From Candidatus Gastranaerophilales bacterium (lineage in GTDB: Bacteria; Cyanobacteriota; Vampirovibrionia; Gastranaerophilales; Gastranaerophilaceae): a stretch of 34,059 nt of DNA. Both the position numbers and the translations under genes were made by a program. The stretch is taken from assembly GCA_944323675.1 (NCBI GenBank), contig CALUTK010000017.1, forward strand, positions 1 through 34,059, written 5' to 3'. Positions 14,855-28,838 of this stretch are shown piece after piece (the stretch's first letter is position 1; every line of letters starts with the position of its first letter). A model generated the notes under the pieces. It saw nothing but the letters and a program-made list of their open reading frames with translations. It did no database searches and was not told where the DNA came from.

Positions 14855-15116
14855 AAAAAGCCGTGCCTTCTGTCTATCGAATTTAACAAATAATATCTAC
14901 GACTAAATTATCTCTTTTTAAAAACAGAACACCCGCAAGGATTGTCTTAGTGCTGCTGTGTTTCCACCCTGACACGGTTCGACAGCTTACGCCATCCTGC
15001 CCTTAAACGTCATCAATAATTCAATTTTCAAAATTATCCGCCAAACCCTCACAACAGACTCTGCACCCCGCATACACTTCGGGTCAAGGGATTGCAATTC
15101 CCCGTGGAGCACGGCT
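14855..15116 (-). ncRNA. ffs: Signal recognition particle RNA, large (Alu-containing) type
   Basis: On the minus strand the ends pair (AGCCGTGC at about 15116 with GCACGGCT at about 14866-14859), followed by a T7 tract that serves as terminator. The apical domain contains GTGTCAGG, GGTGGAAAC, AGCAGCA and CTAAG in the order and spacing of the Ffh-binding SRP hairpin (compare GTCAGG...GGAAG.AGCAGC..TAAG). The 5' start GCCGTGCTCCACGGGG and the length of about 262 nt match the Bacillus-type RNA with an Alu domain, not the short 4.5S form. A well-spaced promoter ends just before the predicted 5' end. The converging strand carries no gene here. Confidence 0.88.
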
Positions 15117-20945: not shown

Positions 20946-22199
20946 TTATGCCAAAAAGTTTTTCAATTCACCTTCTGCGATGTCCTGCGTAACTCCAGGC
21001 ATATACGCATCAAATGCTTCTTTATTCCCGTCAGGAGCAGGTAGTGACATCTGTTTCCATGCAAATGCGATCACATCACTATAGGTGTCAAAGTCATGCG
21101 TAACGCCGACAGATTCATAAGTGACACCGTTTTCAAATCCGTTGAAGTATGTTTTCAATACTGCTAAGGTTTCATAGGAAACTCCTTCAACCAGTTGTTT
21201 TGCGAAATCATCTTCCATTGTATCTGTTGAATAGTATGTGACACATTCATTATAAATATGTGTTGAATGGATAAGTTCATGCCAGAGTGTCTGGGCAAGG
21301 TTTACTTTGCAATAGTTGTAAAATGCCTCATCGTCAACAAGCAGATCTGGGTAGTTAAATTCAGTATTGCCTGAAAGTATAGCTGCTTCTATTTCATCAG
21401 CGCTTGAATATTTGCGTTCCGGCATGAAGTAGCTAGGGTTAAGCAGAATATTTCTGGATGGTGCATTCAGGTGGTACGTGTCATATCCGACCAGTGAACC
21501 ATCATTAGTGTAATACTGTAGATTTGGTGTATAAGCGCCCATTGCAGTATCTGTAGGGGTAAAATTATCATCTGCGCCGTTGCCGACCGTACCAAAACCG
21601 ACCTTAAAATCACAATTTTCAATTGCTTTTCTGATTTCAAGCAAGAATGAAAGTTTAAGCTCCGACTGACCTGCGGCTTTTCCTTGTGCAACCCTTACAT
21701 TATAATTTGCTATGTAATCATCAAGCCACTCAGCCATTACATCAATTGCATCGTAAAGCAATTGTTTTTCTTCTTCATTATTGGCAACTATTGAGTTTTT
21801 AATAGATGTAGTATCTGTTGTTGCATTAATTTTTGATTTTGCAGTATATTCAACAAATCCAATTGTTTTTGCTGTGTTTGCCCTTAGTGTCTCTGTTAAG
21901 GTATCCATTGCTTCAGCATTTAAAGCATTGGTATTTTCTTTCAATATAGAAGCAATCTGGTCTTCTTCACTTAAGATATTATCAATCTCCTTTTCGACAG
22001 CGCCTGAATAAACATCTTCTGCTGTCATAATACGTTCAACCTGAGAAAGACCATTTTTGGCAAAACGTGAAGTTAAAGAAAGCAGCCATGCGTCATCTGT
22101 TGTCTCAGTTTCAGTTGGCACAGGCAGACTGGAATCTTTCTTCTTGTATTCCTCGGTGATTACAGTATTCAATTGTGGATTTGTAATATCTATTGCCAT
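20946..22199 (-). CDS. Putative HExxH metallopeptidase, no signal peptide
   Basis: The 417-residue protein is of unrecognised family. The N-terminal half (about 35-190) is helical. The C-terminal half has TLWHELIHSTHIYNE with His307, Glu308 and His311 as a zinc site, and Glu338 in QLVEGVSYET as a likely third ligand (gluzincin-like spacing). No signal peptide or membrane helix is present. AAGG eight bases before the ATG supports the start, 15 bases after the stop of the MSASQARLL protein, so the two form an operon. Activity is inferred from the motif only. It could process its operon partner. Confidence 0.75.
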   Translation of the reverse strand: MAIDITNPQLNTVITEEYKKKDSSLPVPTETETTDDAWLLSLTSRFAKNGLSQVERIMTAEDVYSGAVEKEIDNILSEEDQIASILKENTNALNAEAMDTLTETLRANTAKTIGFVEYTAKSKINATTDTTSIKNSIVANNEEEKQLLYDAIDVMAEWLDDYIANYNVRVAQGKAAGQSELKLSFLLEIRKAIENCDFKVGFGTVGNGADDNFTPTDTAMGAYTPNLQYYTNDGSLVGYDTYHLNAPSRNILLNPSYFMPERKYSSADEIEAAILSGNTEFNYPDLLVDDEAFYNYCKVNLAQTLWHELIHSTHIYNECVTYYSTDTMEDDFAKQLVEGVSYETLAVLKTYFNGFENGVTYESVGVTHDFDTYSDVIAFAWKQMSLPAPDGNKEAFDAYMPGVTQDIAEGELKNFLA

Positions 22200-22214
22200 A
22201 TTTAATACCTTAGA

Positions 22215-24245
22215 TTAACCGAATGTTTTGAATGATCTTTCTACGTTTTTGTTAAGTACGTTTTTGATACTTTCTTCTTCTGCTAATAATGCATCGTATT
22301 GTGTATCAATCTTTTTCTGATCCATTTCATAACGCTTATCCTGTGCCTGAATTGCTTCCATGCCTTTCTGGTATTCAGCTTCTGCTAAGGCTAAAGCGTT
22401 ATCATCTTGTTTATCAACGATTGCTGTACAGCTGTCAAGTGAAACAAGTTCATAATCTGTTCCGTTGATATTGAATCCTTGAGTTGAATCTGCATCTGCC
22501 GGAGATACAAGCTGATATCTTCCGTTTCTGATACCGGTTTCGAGTTCGAGGCTTGAAAGTCCGCCGAAGTTTTCATCTTCAACCAGAACTGTTTCATATA
22601 CAGGAACTTCTTCGTAAACTGGTTTTTGTTCGTAACCGATAGGCGGCTGCGTTGTATCAGGAGTTTCTTTAGTTTCTTCTTTTACAAGCGCATCTTCCTG
22701 AAGTTCTGTAAGGTTAATTACAGGAAGCTTGTTTGCCTGAGAGGTAGCCTGATTTTGGTCTCTGTAGCCGTCATCGCCTTCTGTAAGCCATACATCAGCT
22801 TTTGTTCCGTCAGAAAGTGTTTCTTGAACTGATGTTCCTAAAACACCTTTGTTTGTGTTGCCGCTGTCATATGTAGGAGATGTTGAATTGCTCCAGTATA
22901 AAACGTTGTTATTATTTCTTGTATCAAGCGCCACCATATTAGTAACGTCAGATTCGAGAACCGGACCGCGGCAGGCAAGGTCGGAGGCATTAATATTTGC
23001 GCCGCTTGCTGTTGTAATTGCACCCATTGCAACGCAGTTCTTAATTGTTGTTTCGTGTGAGTCATCACCGATAAAGTTGTTTATTGAGTTTGAATAATCA
23101 GTTCCAGAGCCGAGTCTGATATCAACATCTGAATAGCAGTTCTTAATTGTGCTGTCGCCTTTTACAAGATTCCAGTTAGCACCGATAAAGCCGCCGATAA
23201 ACCCGAAGCTGTCATCAGCATTTGGAATGTTAATTGTACCTGTTGCACTTGAATTGCTTACGTTACCGTTGCTTAACCCGACAAGACCTCCGACAGATGC
23301 TCTTTCCGGTACGTAACCTTCCGGATATGTTGTGTCAGGTTTGAGGTTACATGTAATATTTACATCTGTTGCGTTACAGTTTTCAATTGAGGCGCCGTCT
23401 GCAAGATAGTTTGACATAGCACCCAGTGCATCAGTTTCTGCTGAAACATTTGCACCTACAAGGTTGATACTTTTTGCAACACCGTATAATGAATTAAAGA
23501 AGCCGGAATCACCGTTTAAACCTTGAATAGTTTCACCGTTGCCGTCAAATACGCCCTGGAAGCCTGAGATACCATGCCAGTTATATCCGCTCAAATCAAT
23601 TACTTCACCGTCATCAAGGTCAAGTACATAGTTTTGCGAAGCAGCATCAGGATTATTAGCCAGCTGATCCATAATTGCATCAAAGCCAGCTTGAGATTTA
23701 ATTGAAATAGAGTTGATATCTCTTTCCTGACCGCCTATCATTGTTGTGTAAGAAACTACTTCAATATCGTCTTCACCCAAACCTGTTGCGGCTGCAATTT
23801 CATTCATCTTATTAAGACTTTCCGGTCCGTATGCAGGAATTGTAGGATCTGCTTCTCTGAATGTGTCAGTTTCAGTTTTTGTAGGATAAATAGGTTTTGT
23901 AAGGTCATCTTCATAACCTACAATAACCTGTTCTGTTTTACCAGTGTCAACTTTTTCATAAGTGTAACCAAGAATTTTAGAGCCGTCATATACGAATAAA
24001 TTCTGTGATTTTAAATTTTCAAGGGTAATGAGTTCACTTTTAGCAGCAGCACCGTCTACTGTAAAGATATTCGGATTAATATACAAACGGCTGTTAGAAA
24101 GAGCACGTGTGTATTTTTCCTGAATTCTTTCTGAATCCATTGCCAGTCTGATTTTTGCATCAGAAACATTCTGGCCCTGTAGTGAAAGATTGTTCAATTG
24201 TGCCGTGATGTACAATAATCTTGCTTGTGATGCTGACATTCCCAT
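22215..24245 (-). CDS. Large GLUG-repeat protein of the MSASQARLL type
   Basis: I start at ATG 24245-24243 (MGMSASQARLLYITAQLNNL, 676 residues); AAGGGAAT upstream supports this over a start 21 codons earlier. The N-terminal helix pattern has no signal peptide and recurs, to my memory, in many proteins of gut Melainabacteria. A central region (about 205-450) carries GLUG-type beta repeats (GGLVGLSNGN, GGFIGANWN, IKNCVAMGAI) as in surface adhesins. A Pro/Glu/Tyr-rich segment (KPVYEEVPVYETV) and a C-terminal helical coiled coil ending SFKTFG follow. It is probably a secreted or surface structural protein; the export route and function are unknown. The HExxH gene follows in the same operon. Confidence 0.8.
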   Translation of the reverse strand: MGMSASQARLLYITAQLNNLSLQGQNVSDAKIRLAMDSERIQEKYTRALSNSRLYINPNIFTVDGAAAKSELITLENLKSQNLFVYDGSKILGYTYEKVDTGKTEQVIVGYEDDLTKPIYPTKTETDTFREADPTIPAYGPESLNKMNEIAAATGLGEDDIEVVSYTTMIGGQERDINSISIKSQAGFDAIMDQLANNPDAASQNYVLDLDDGEVIDLSGYNWHGISGFQGVFDGNGETIQGLNGDSGFFNSLYGVAKSINLVGANVSAETDALGAMSNYLADGASIENCNATDVNITCNLKPDTTYPEGYVPERASVGGLVGLSNGNVSNSSATGTINIPNADDSFGFIGGFIGANWNLVKGDSTIKNCYSDVDIRLGSGTDYSNSINNFIGDDSHETTIKNCVAMGAITTASGANINASDLACRGPVLESDVTNMVALDTRNNNNVLYWSNSTSPTYDSGNTNKGVLGTSVQETLSDGTKADVWLTEGDDGYRDQNQATSQANKLPVINLTELQEDALVKEETKETPDTTQPPIGYEQKPVYEEVPVYETVLVEDENFGGLSSLELETGIRNGRYQLVSPADADSTQGFNINGTDYELVSLDSCTAIVDKQDDNALALAEAEYQKGMEAIQAQDKRYEMDQKKIDTQYDALLAEEESIKNVLNKNVERSFKTFG

Positions 24246-24335
24246 AATGTATTCCCTTTTATTAATTTCCTTAATTGGTATGTCGGCATTTATTACTGTA
24301 ATCTTCAATAATTTGGGGCATTTGTTACAAATTTG

Positions 24336-25340: not shown

Positions 25341-25988
25341 ATGAAAAAGTTATTTTTAATCTTAACGTTATTAATATTTTCAATAACCTCTGCACGGGCG
25401 GCGGACAATTACTTGAATACAGTTATTCTTGAAGGTGCGGAGAGCGGATATAACGTTATACTTCGCTCGGATTCACTTGCAGCTGTAAAAAGAATTCCGG
25501 AAGGACAGAATAAGCTTACTCTGGAGGTGAAGGGGGCAACTGCTTCTAATTCATTAAGCACAATATATAAAAATACATCCGATGCCAACAGTGTTATTGT
25601 TGAAAATGCAGGTGCGAATGCGGTAAAGGTACATATTAACGCAAAAGATGCAGTAAATTCAAATATCATATTTGATATTCCAGGCTCATCTCCTGTTGTT
25701 GTCTCAGACACAGTTTCAAAAAACATGCTGTTGTGGAGTGCTTTAGCATTTGTAATGCTCTCAGGCTTATTCTTTATGAGTAAAAATATAAAAGAAGATC
25801 CGCATGCTGAAATTGCAGAGGCTCTCCAGAAAAATATGAGAGACAGAGAAATTGAGATGTACAGGAATTACAGAAAAGAACTTTTGACAATACCGAGTAT
25901 AGATTACAAGATAAAAAATCCGCGTGTACAGAATGTTATAAGACGAGCAGATACCATAAGACATCTGCAAAGAACGGCTAAAAGATAG
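25341..25988 (+). CDS. AMIN-like domain protein, single-pass membrane anchored
   Basis: The 215-residue product has a signal peptide (MKKLFLILTLLIFSITSARA). Residues about 24-112 form a beta-rich domain resembling AMIN (TVILEGAESGYNVILRSDS, GQNKLTLEVKG, VKVHINAKDA), the peptidoglycan-binding module of AmiC and PilQ. A single membrane helix follows at about 127-146 (KNMLLWSALAFVMLSGLFFM), then a basic cytoplasmic tail of about 70 residues with possible helices. GGGAAAGGAACC is the ribosome binding site. It leads a three-gene run with eight- and zero-base gaps. It could link the cell wall to the SPFH assembly encoded two genes later (inference). Confidence 0.8.
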   Translation: MKKLFLILTLLIFSITSARAADNYLNTVILEGAESGYNVILRSDSLAAVKRIPEGQNKLTLEVKGATASNSLSTIYKNTSDANSVIVENAGANAVKVHINAKDAVNSNIIFDIPGSSPVVVSDTVSKNMLLWSALAFVMLSGLFFMSKNIKEDPHAEIAEALQKNMRDREIEMYRNYRKELLTIPSIDYKIKNPRVQNVIRRADTIRHLQRTAKR

Positions 25989-25996
25989 GAAGTAAA

Positions 25997-26188
25997 ATGG
26001 CAGTCAGAGTTTTATTATTATTACTTGCACTGGTTATAATTACAAACATTATAATTATAATATGCAGTTATCTATTTAATGTTAACCTTTACGAAAAGCA
26101 CGGGAAAGCAATACTGGGCGGTTTCGGGATACTTGCTATATTTATTGTCGCCGTGTATGTTGTGCTTGCAGTATTAGGGATGGTGTAA
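25997..26188 (+). CDS. 63-residue two-helix membrane protein
   Basis: Two hydrophobic segments (about 4-29 and 40-62) are separated by a short polar loop (NVNLYEKHGKA). There is no known motif. GGAAG lies five bases before the ATG, eight bases after the AMIN-like gene. The stop codon abuts the ATG of the SPFH gene. Its placement in a tight operon and clean ribosome binding site support a real gene despite its size. Function unknown; it is likely a partner of one of its neighbours. Confidence 0.75.
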   Translation: MAVRVLLLLLALVIITNIIIIICSYLFNVNLYEKHGKAILGGFGILAIFIVAVYVVLAVLGMV

Positions 26189-27181
26189 ATGAAAATTGAA
26201 TTGATTTTCTGGCTGCTAATTATAATATTACTTTTGTTGTGCCAGTTCGGAGAGCTAATTAATAAAATATATAAAAATAAATCCCGCCGTAAGCAAACAT
26301 CTCAAAAAATCATTGATATACAGAATGTCACTACAAAAAGCTCATTATTAAATAATTATATAAAAGAAAGGATAAATACTATGGATAAGAAAAGTTTAGC
26401 AACACCGACGCTTGTAATACTGCTATTAATAGCATTTATAATAATATGCAATCCAATAGCAATTGTAGGTGTTGGAGAACGCGGAGTTAAGGTTACGCTC
26501 GGAAAAGTCTCCCCGCACAGCTACACAGAAGGGATTCATCTTATAACTCCTTTTATTTCAAAAATTAAAAATATGAATGTCAAAACCCAGAAAACATATA
26601 TTGAAACCGACTTATACACCAAAGATATTCAGCAGGCAAAAATATCTTATGTAATAAATTTCAACCTGCAGCCTCAAAATGCTCATAATATGTATAGGGA
26701 AGTAGGTACAGGCTACGTTGATATGGTGCTTATACCGGTGGCGGAAGGTACTATTAAAGATGTTATAGGCAAATGGAATGCGCAGGATCTGGTTGCAAAC
26801 CGTGAAACAGCAACAGTTGATATACTCCGTAAGCTTCAAAAGCAGCTTGCTCCAAGATATATTGACGTTACCGGATTTCAGATTACTGATATAAATTATT
26901 CAAATGTTTTTGAAAAATCTATTGAAAGCAAAGTAACTGCAGAACAGGATGCATTAAAAGCAAAAAACAGAACTGTCCAGATTCAGGAAGAGGCAAAGCA
27001 AAAAATAATTTCTGCTGAAGCTGAGGCAAAATCTATGGCAATCAGAGCAAATGCATTAACGCAGAACAAGGCGCTTGTTGAATATGAAGCAGTTCAAAAA
27101 TGGGACGGACACCTTCCTCAATATATGATGGGAAATACAGTACCGTTTTTGAACATGTCAACCGGAAATTTTAAACGATAA
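26189..27181 (+). CDS. SPFH/prohibitin-family membrane protein
   Basis: The 330-residue protein scaffolds membrane microdomains or regulates membrane proteases, as prohibitins and HflKC do. A first hydrophobic segment lies at about 7-20 and a second at about 74-90, followed by the SPFH domain (GVGERGVKVTLGKVSP, VAEGTIKDVIGKWNAQDLV), a coiled coil rich in Ala/Glu (EEAKQKIISAEAEAKSMAIR) and the family C-terminus KWDGHLPQYMMGNTVPFL. An internal ATG at 26381 (MDKKSLATP) has GAAAGGA upstream and would give the usual 266-residue form without the first helix. Both forms may be made. A strong terminator follows. Confidence 0.9.
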   Translation: MKIELIFWLLIIILLLLCQFGELINKIYKNKSRRKQTSQKIIDIQNVTTKSSLLNNYIKERINTMDKKSLATPTLVILLLIAFIIICNPIAIVGVGERGVKVTLGKVSPHSYTEGIHLITPFISKIKNMNVKTQKTYIETDLYTKDIQQAKISYVINFNLQPQNAHNMYREVGTGYVDMVLIPVAEGTIKDVIGKWNAQDLVANRETATVDILRKLQKQLAPRYIDVTGFQITDINYSNVFEKSIESKVTAEQDALKAKNRTVQIQEEAKQKIISAEAEAKSMAIRANALTQNKALVEYEAVQKWDGHLPQYMMGNTVPFLNMSTGNFKR

Positions 27182-27210: not shown

Positions 27211-27239
27211 ATCCGCTTCATTAAGAGGCGGATTTTTTT
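27211..27239 (+). terminator. Rho-independent terminator of the AMIN-SPFH operon
   Basis: ATCCGCTT pairs with AGGCGGAT (one wobble pair) around a short loop, followed by seven T. It lies 30 bases after the SPFH stop. Confidence 0.9.
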
Positions 27240-27598: not shown

Positions 27599-28741
27599 CT
27601 ACCCGACAATGCGATCCGCCGGTTTGAAATATTCTTTTATAATGCTTGTAATTTTCTTTGCTGAGGTTCCGTCACCATAAGGGTTAGATGCTTTTAATCG
27701 GGTATTTTCTTTGGTATCTGAAAGAATTTTTTCGCTTAGTGATGTGATTTTGTCATAATCTGCCCCTACAAGAACAGAAACGCCTGCATCAATGCCTTCC
27801 TGACGCTCGGTTTCATATCTCATTACAAATGTCGGGCAGCCGAAGGATGGGGCTTCCTCTTGAATCCCTCCTGAATCAGTTAATATAAGCTTTGCATTCT
27901 TCATTAAATATACTAAATAAGGATAATCCAAAGGCTCTAACAGCTTAATATTTGCGAATTTGCCGAGGCGTTCATGTATTTTATTCTTAACGTTCGGATT
28001 CGGGTGAACAGGAATAACAAAGGTATGCTCGTTATATTTTTCAGCCAAATGTTTTATTGCTTCAATTATTCTGTCGATTCTTTCTCCGTGATTTTCTCTT
28101 CTGTGCGCTGTTATGAGAACAAGTTTATCGTCAACTTTAATATTTTTTTCTTTGAAAAATTTTGCCGCTTTAGAAAGGGTTTCCTCGGAAAGGCAGAATA
28201 GTGCATCAATTACTGTGTTTCCGACGACATGTATTTTTCTATCCGGAATATTTTCTTTTAAAAGCGCCTGACGATTTTTTTCAGTAGGCGCGAAATGAAG
28301 TTCTGCAACCCGTGATGTCATCTGCCGCATAACCTCTTCCGGAAACGGCTCATAAATGTCGTAGGAGCGGAGTCCTGCTTCCACATGGAATACCGGTATC
28401 TTATTATAAAAGCTTGCTAAAGCTCCGCAAAGAACTGTCATTGTGTCGCCCTGCACAATTGTCGCGTCAATCTTATTGCTGCTGTAGACATTATTTAATG
28501 CTGTTAATATTCTTGTCTGAACCTCTAAAAGCGATTGATTCTGCTTCATTACATCGAGATTAATATCTGCATTCAATCCGAAGTATGCAAGGGTCTGGTT
28601 TGAAAGCTCTTTTTGCTGCTCAGTATTACAGATAATAACATTAAAATATTCCGGAAATTTTTTCATCTCCAGAATTACCGGGGCAAGCTTAATTACCTCC
28701 GGTCGCGTTCCAAAAACCACCAATATATTTTTCTTATCCAT
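27599..28741 (-). CDS. wecB: UDP-N-acetylglucosamine 2-epimerase (non-hydrolysing)
   Basis: The 380-residue cytoplasmic enzyme interconverts UDP-GlcNAc and UDP-ManNAc, feeding envelope polysaccharide synthesis. Family motifs are all present: VVFGTRPEVIKLAP near the start, GDTMTV, FHVEAGLRS, EEVMRQMTSR, TAHRRENHGER, LTDSGGIQEEAP and MRYETERQEG. I start at ATG 28741 (MDKKNILVVFGTRPE), the usual family start; a TTG 12 codons earlier only adds an unrelated-looking stretch. The gene stands alone: the neighbour on one side is divergent (glutaredoxin) and the other side is repeats. Final length matches the family (about 375-380). Confidence 0.97.
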   Translation of the reverse strand: MDKKNILVVFGTRPEVIKLAPVILEMKKFPEYFNVIICNTEQQKELSNQTLAYFGLNADINLDVMKQNQSLLEVQTRILTALNNVYSSNKIDATIVQGDTMTVLCGALASFYNKIPVFHVEAGLRSYDIYEPFPEEVMRQMTSRVAELHFAPTEKNRQALLKENIPDRKIHVVGNTVIDALFCLSEETLSKAAKFFKEKNIKVDDKLVLITAHRRENHGERIDRIIEAIKHLAEKYNEHTFVIPVHPNPNVKNKIHERLGKFANIKLLEPLDYPYLVYLMKNAKLILTDSGGIQEEAPSFGCPTFVMRYETERQEGIDAGVSVLVGADYDKITSLSEKILSDTKENTRLKASNPYGDGTSAKKITSIIKEYFKPADRIVG

Positions 28742-28838
28742 ACCTAAAAGTTTAATATAAAAATTATTCCTGTGCAATTACATCAGAGGGATTAAAAATA
28801 TTAATAACAATAGATAATTATAGCAAAAGGAGAGAAAA

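Follow-up and report, generated by a model that had tools for sequence, protein, structure and literature searches.

Both prohibitins and HflKC are found in membrane-anchored assemblies that include FtsH-type proteases; NfeD proteins are the partners of other SPFH classes in bacteria. For the prohibitin-type SPFH proteins (SPFH4), no NfeD partner was reported in a 2009 survey (Hinderhofer et al., PMC2636767), in which conserved operon structure was described only for SPFH1, 2 and 5; according to that survey no bacterial SPFH4 member had been studied at that date, and no dedicated partner gene was then known. The locus described here lies in a stretch of 34,059 nt (the window) that is part of contig C17 of a 1.81-Mb genome, whose nearest named relatives, in a scan of named genomes, were Candidatus Scatousia and other gut Gastranaerophilales. 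In the literature, no paper was found that ties Gastranaerophilales to a prohibitin gene pair.

Organization of the locus and the prohibitin-type gene

Three forward-strand open reading frames, designated A (nt 25341–25988, 215 aa), B (nt 25997–26188, 63 aa, a two-TM membrane protein) and C (long form, nt 26189–27181, 330 aa, two TM helices), had been called in an earlier sequence-only reading, and all three were confirmed to the nucleotide. So was the 8-base spacing between A and B; the gap between these two genes was 2 to 45 bases in all 20 other loci with the trio, and the tight layout is therefore not due to chance. The 0-base spacing claimed for B and C holds if C starts at nt 26189, but becomes 192 bases if the main start is at nt 26381. 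A terminator-like hairpin followed by a T run, of the intrinsic type, was located at nt 27211–27233 (forward strand) and closes A-B-C. One such site in 2.6 kb, versus a shuffle mean of 1.6, is not above chance, but the same sequence recurs in relatives, after C in genome G010 and after A in genome G007, which supports the assignment. On the opposite strand, nt 27599–28777 encode a wecB-like UDP-GlcNAc 2-epimerase; since this gene adjoins A in genera lacking B+C at the locus, it identifies the distal flank of the insertion point.

The protein predicted for C matched Band_7 (PF01145) with an E value of 9.4e-29 and 101 bits (cut-off 23.6). Prohibitins led the sequence comparison with PDB (8.7e-19), followed by HflC (4e-7) and QmcA (2e-6), and the human prohibitin complex ranked first when the C model was searched with Foldseek. 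The predicted structure (mean pLDDT 76) comprised an SPFH domain and a long C-terminal helix (residues 239–303), and an N-terminal TM helix was found by hydropathy. By sequence and modelled fold, C is a prohibitin-type SPFH protein, and the SPFH/prohibitin label given to it earlier was borne out by the Band_7 match, the PDB ranking and the fold search alike.

A second ATG of C is situated at nt 26381, preceded by a strong purine-rich Shine-Dalgarno sequence; the conserved internal ribosome-binding site (AAAGAAAGG) and this short-form start codon together span nt 26360–26383 (forward strand), and the start was kept in 21 of 21 pair-bearing genomes compared. Initiation there would yield the core of C (nt 26381–27181, forward strand), a protein of 266 aa with one membrane helix, the SPFH/Band_7 domain, the long C-terminal helix and a C-terminal LPQYMMGNxVPF motif. 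Little or no coding was observed upstream of the equivalent ATG in several pair genomes (e.g. G009, G035 and G041). The 64 codons at nt 26189–26380 (forward strand) form an in-frame N-terminal extension with a TM helix and then a basic linker, which is missing from G009 and other genera. This extension is fast evolving, with 7 non-synonymous and 6 synonymous codon changes between the source genome (G000) and G011, versus 3 and 82, respectively, in the core. Because a hydrophobic helix stands at its start and it stays open and in frame in 11 of the 12 genomes of the genus that have the pair, the extension is probably translated, giving a long isoform of C; judging from these sequences, short C would be the ancestral product and long C an added isoform. 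Low divergence just upstream of nt 26381 had prompted the reading of an RNA element, and is at least in part accounted for by the conserved ribosome-binding site. A structured RNA at the B-C junction was rejected, its folding being no better than that of shuffles (z +1.06), and no RNA element was found at this junction in an Rfam scan, the sole match being a bacterial large SRP RNA elsewhere in the window (nt 14861–15114, reverse strand, E 3.7e-10).

Gene B encodes a protein with two predicted TM helices (residues 5–23 and 45–63) linked by an N-x-Y-x-K-x-G-K loop, as expected of the tiny two-helix membrane protein that had been recognized at this position. Residues N17, N30 and Y32 were invariant and R4 nearly so, the membrane topology was ambiguous by charge, and no family match was obtained in Pfam and NCBIfam.

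Like SPFH4 and mitochondrial PHB1/PHB2, C possesses Band_7, an N-terminal TM helix and a long C-terminal helix and has no NfeD gene beside it, its neighbours in the window being A/B and wecB. Unlike SPFH4 as surveyed (PMC2636767), it is strictly linked to the gene of a 63-aa two-TM partner, and in the window clade its N-terminal extension brings in a second TM helix. The combination of an SPFH protein with a dedicated membrane partner gene resembles the SPFH-NfeD pairs QmcA-YbbJ and YuaG-YuaF, although B is too small for the NfeD OB domain and falls outside Pfam families. Similar to HflK-HflC with FtsH, C would be a membrane-anchored SPFH protein, presumably facing the periplasm, which may modulate FtsH; in contrast to HflK-HflC, the locus has one SPFH gene and no paralogue pair, and the sequence of C is nearer to prohibitin. 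Elsewhere in the source genome, an NfeD-stomatin-type pair appears to be present at G000:C39, and a gene on contig C54 (L127:5364-6638) encodes a 424-aa protein with zinc-ribbon-like motifs and an SPFH domain, both being named from sequence and gene order.

Distribution of the B+C pair and its carriage by phage

When named genomes were scanned with C, 148 places matched, and the best 80 loci, from gut Gastranaerophilales, were fetched; in all 80 of these (best 80 of 148) B immediately preceded C, a strict conservation that agrees with the small partner suggested earlier for the SPFH protein. Among 59 relatives, B and close C occupied an identical set of 21 genomes, and in an independent sample of the phylum (244 genomes, C counted at E ≤ 1e-60) B was found in 41, C in 40 and both in 39. 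The pair was located in many unrelated gene neighbourhoods, mostly behind a gene on the opposite strand, and its presence was patchy inside genera; closer relatives (SMC identity 75–77%) without B+C were observed.

The identity shared by C homologues with the window protein was about 70% whether SMC identity was 46% or 74% (compared SMC range 46–80%), and C and SMC identity showed a correlation of -0.34 when all pairs in which SMC fell below 80% were taken together. This flat identity, together with the patchiness, suggests horizontal transfer of C. Vertical descent with losses was not rejected in AU tests (p 0.09–0.34), and tree conflict gives no proof of transfer because C is too short and too conserved.

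The viral contig IMGVR_UViG_3300029305_011762 (IMG/VR; L291/L306, 41.8 kb) carries B+C, with a C protein sharing 68% identity with that of the window, and also encodes an integrase (1e-61), a CI-like repressor and a terminase (8.5e-40). It shows that the pair is carried by a phage of this bacterial group, temperate as judged from its predicted genes. B+C was likewise found amid phage-type genes in the viral contig L278 and the MAG contigs L218 and L308. Of 288 genomes from the family, 10 contained a marker gene of the phage represented by the 41.8-kb contig; B+C lay beside the marker in only one of the ten (L308), and phage carriage is thus the minority state. The phage copies of C formed one supported clade, for which an origin older or younger than that of the chromosomal copies was not separated (p 0.47).

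Protein C also matched phrog_200, a family of phage-encoded SPFH 'lipoproteins', at 5.8e-48, and phage SPFH proteins outside the L278/L291 group shared less than 50% identity with it. Some phage copies of that family are preceded, as C is, by small membrane-protein genes; the members in L238 to L240 differ in their lipoprotein-like appearance and in that the small proteins before them have no profile similarity to B. These distant viral SPFH genes (L238:3781-4759, L239:3792-4762 and L240:3781-4786), with lipoprotein-like signals, are each directly preceded by a gene for a small membrane protein of 61–68 aa with a K-x-G-R-like end. Homology of B to these small proteins was considered and rejected for want of a profile match, and most of the annotated phage SPFH genes checked had no small two-helix neighbour.

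The pair might be chiefly phage-derived cargo that alters the host membrane or FtsH for lysogeny or superinfection block, the chromosomal copies being domesticated remnants. Such an origin would fit its presence in the contig of a temperate phage that also encodes terminase, integrase and repressor, the position of more distant phage SPFH genes behind small membrane-protein genes in several contigs, and the patchiness within genera. However, chromosomal copies are far more numerous and are under strong purifying selection (82 synonymous versus 3 non-synonymous changes, G000 versus G011), the pair in the window is not flanked by phage genes, and the close phage copies are not basal in the tree; we consider this origin unlikely.

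Gene A and its association with the pair

The protein predicted for A consists of a signal peptide (hydrophobic stretch at residues 4–22), an AMIN-related beta domain (about residues 24–122), a TM helix (residues 129–147) and a tail predicted to be helical, basic and cytoplasmic, with conserved REIEMY and ADTIRHLQR motifs; the single membrane pass and basic cytoplasmic tail proposed earlier agree with this layout. Homologues were present in 55 of the 59 relatives, nearly all of the same order, in a short (about 215 aa) and a long (350–480 aa) form. In the long homologues (e.g. L114:4507-5595), a C-terminal motif, DSxKFLExMxxIYEKSGRxDLAxGLKxN, is conserved that is missing from the short form at the wecB locus.

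No match of window A to Pfam AMIN (PF11741) reached the curated cut-off. Ten of 36 aligned members of the A family matched this model (best 7e-8), and when whole genomes were scanned blindly for AMIN, A homologues exceeded the curated cut-off in 11 of them, at the same coordinates. Compared with a profile of PilQ-type AMIN, the whole A family gave an E value of 5.6e-4 at a probability of only 30%, and the window clade of A alone gave no match. The model built for A (pLDDT 64, poor for a fold search) contained seven strands and had no PDB match below E 0.1. The AMIN-like strands ascribed to A find their support in a part of its relatives, and the comparisons support a relationship of A to AMIN through its family and not by its own sequence. 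In common with the AMIN envelope proteins AmiC, PilQ and AMIN-FliO (PMC12403147), the A family has a signal peptide and an AMIN-related N-terminal domain; unlike these proteins, A ends in a TM helix and a helical basic tail, has no amidase, secretin or FliO core, and in the window scores below the AMIN cut-off.

The order of AMIN domain, TM helix and cytoplasmic domain, as in AMIN-bearing FliO (PMC12403147), and the presence of a FliP-like gene in 57 of 59 genomes would be compatible with A being a divergent FliO of an export gate that is assisted by the pair. However, the tail of A was predicted as two helices with no FliO beta core (low-confidence model), A is not adjacent to fliP, the fliP-like gene being on contig C40, and a 136-aa single-TM protein is already encoded directly upstream of that gene. 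The helical tail and the location away from fliP led to the rejection of this assignment, which we regard as exceedingly improbable. No conserved flagellar or secretion genes were seen in the neighbourhoods of A in relatives. The region on contig C40 (L118:6405-8759) contains the FliP-like gene (213 aa), FliQ/FliR-like genes and, upstream, the 136-aa protein as a FliO-like candidate. Almost all of the genomes examined in the order had a short FliP-like gene of this kind, and only some had a longer flagellar-type FliP (about 250–289 aa); the sequences suggest that the short FliP-like set is a non-flagellar export gate. Two adjacent genes were also noted in the window at nt 20946–24308 (reverse strand), one with the N-terminus MGMSASQARLLxLTAxL, and proteins starting in this way turned up again near A in relatives.

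A adjoined B+C in only 20 of the 80 fetched loci (best 80 of 148), all belonging to one clade, and among the 59 relatives it was mostly found without the pair or far from it. Elsewhere in the same family A abuts wecB, in the same gene order and with no B+C between. In the C tree, the trio loci and the window required 2 label changes, a number reached in 0 of 500 shuffles, which indicates about one event joining A and B+C. Genome G007, of the same genus, has A at the locus and no B+C; the terminator sequence (AATAATCCTTAATCATCCGC) lies within about 40 bases of the A stop codon, where its sisters have the same sequence after C. It is a natural loss or an empty site in which A is retained without B+C, and loss is favoured as the simpler reading because the trio is present in the sister genus (G013) as well. 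The check set for the earlier reading, that the trio should recur among relatives, was passed inside one clade but not beyond it, and the low share of loci with an adjoining A and the state of G007 speak against the trio as a conserved system. Genome comparison shows A to be an order-wide, putative envelope gene of the AMIN family with its own history, behind which B+C was joined about once.

In line with the wall-linked microdomain suggested earlier, the three proteins might make up a single membrane scaffold whose C ring is tied to peptidoglycan by the AMIN domain of A, given the A-B gaps of 2 to 45 bases over 21 trio genomes from several genera, the terminator common to the unit and the AMIN relationship of the A family. 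Such a scaffold appears quite improbable, as 60 of 80 pair loci (best 80 of 148) have no adjoining A, in most genera A is found with no pair, G007 has retained A whether B+C was lost there or never arrived, and the linkage has a single origin.

Proposed role of the B+C module

The reading we prefer is that the functional unit is the two-gene B+C module, not the A-B-C trio; taken jointly with the mechanism outlined here, it is given a probability of roughly 0.6. The N-terminal helix of C would insert in the inner membrane, leaving the SPFH domain on the non-cytoplasmic side, and C would form a prohibitin- or HflKC-like ring or cage in this membrane. B would be the dedicated transmembrane partner of C, its two helices packing with those of C in the membrane base of the cage, and would fill the slot held by NfeD-type partners in stomatin- and flotillin-type SPFH systems. 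The complex may shield membrane proteins from FtsH or hand them to FtsH, in a form of quality control probably involving this protease, a standard gene for which is present in the source genome. In this scheme, B would partner, within the membrane, a C ring through which membrane proteolysis is regulated. In the window clade, B+C would use the promoter and terminator of A, and A need not belong to the complex. Phage carriage suggests that the module benefits its carrier, like a cargo gene pair, and it might do so by lysogeny control through FtsH or by membrane protection.

A bolder version, which we put forward tentatively and think rather unlikely, is that B+C constitutes a new two-component prohibitin machine, composed of a ring-forming SPFH protein and an obligate TM hairpin, which temperate phages would spread among gut Vampirovibrionia, which would retune FtsH-dependent proteolysis or membrane entry for its carrier, and which in the window clade would be wired to an AMIN envelope protein.

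The first reading of this locus is corrected in that the conserved unit is the pair, not the trio. In each of the bacterial loci fetched (best 80 of 148), and in a phage of the same bacteria, a prohibitin has a 63-residue protein at its side. B+C may therefore serve as a minimal system for asking how SPFH rings gain accessory membrane subunits, and it also bears on why phages carry SPFH genes.
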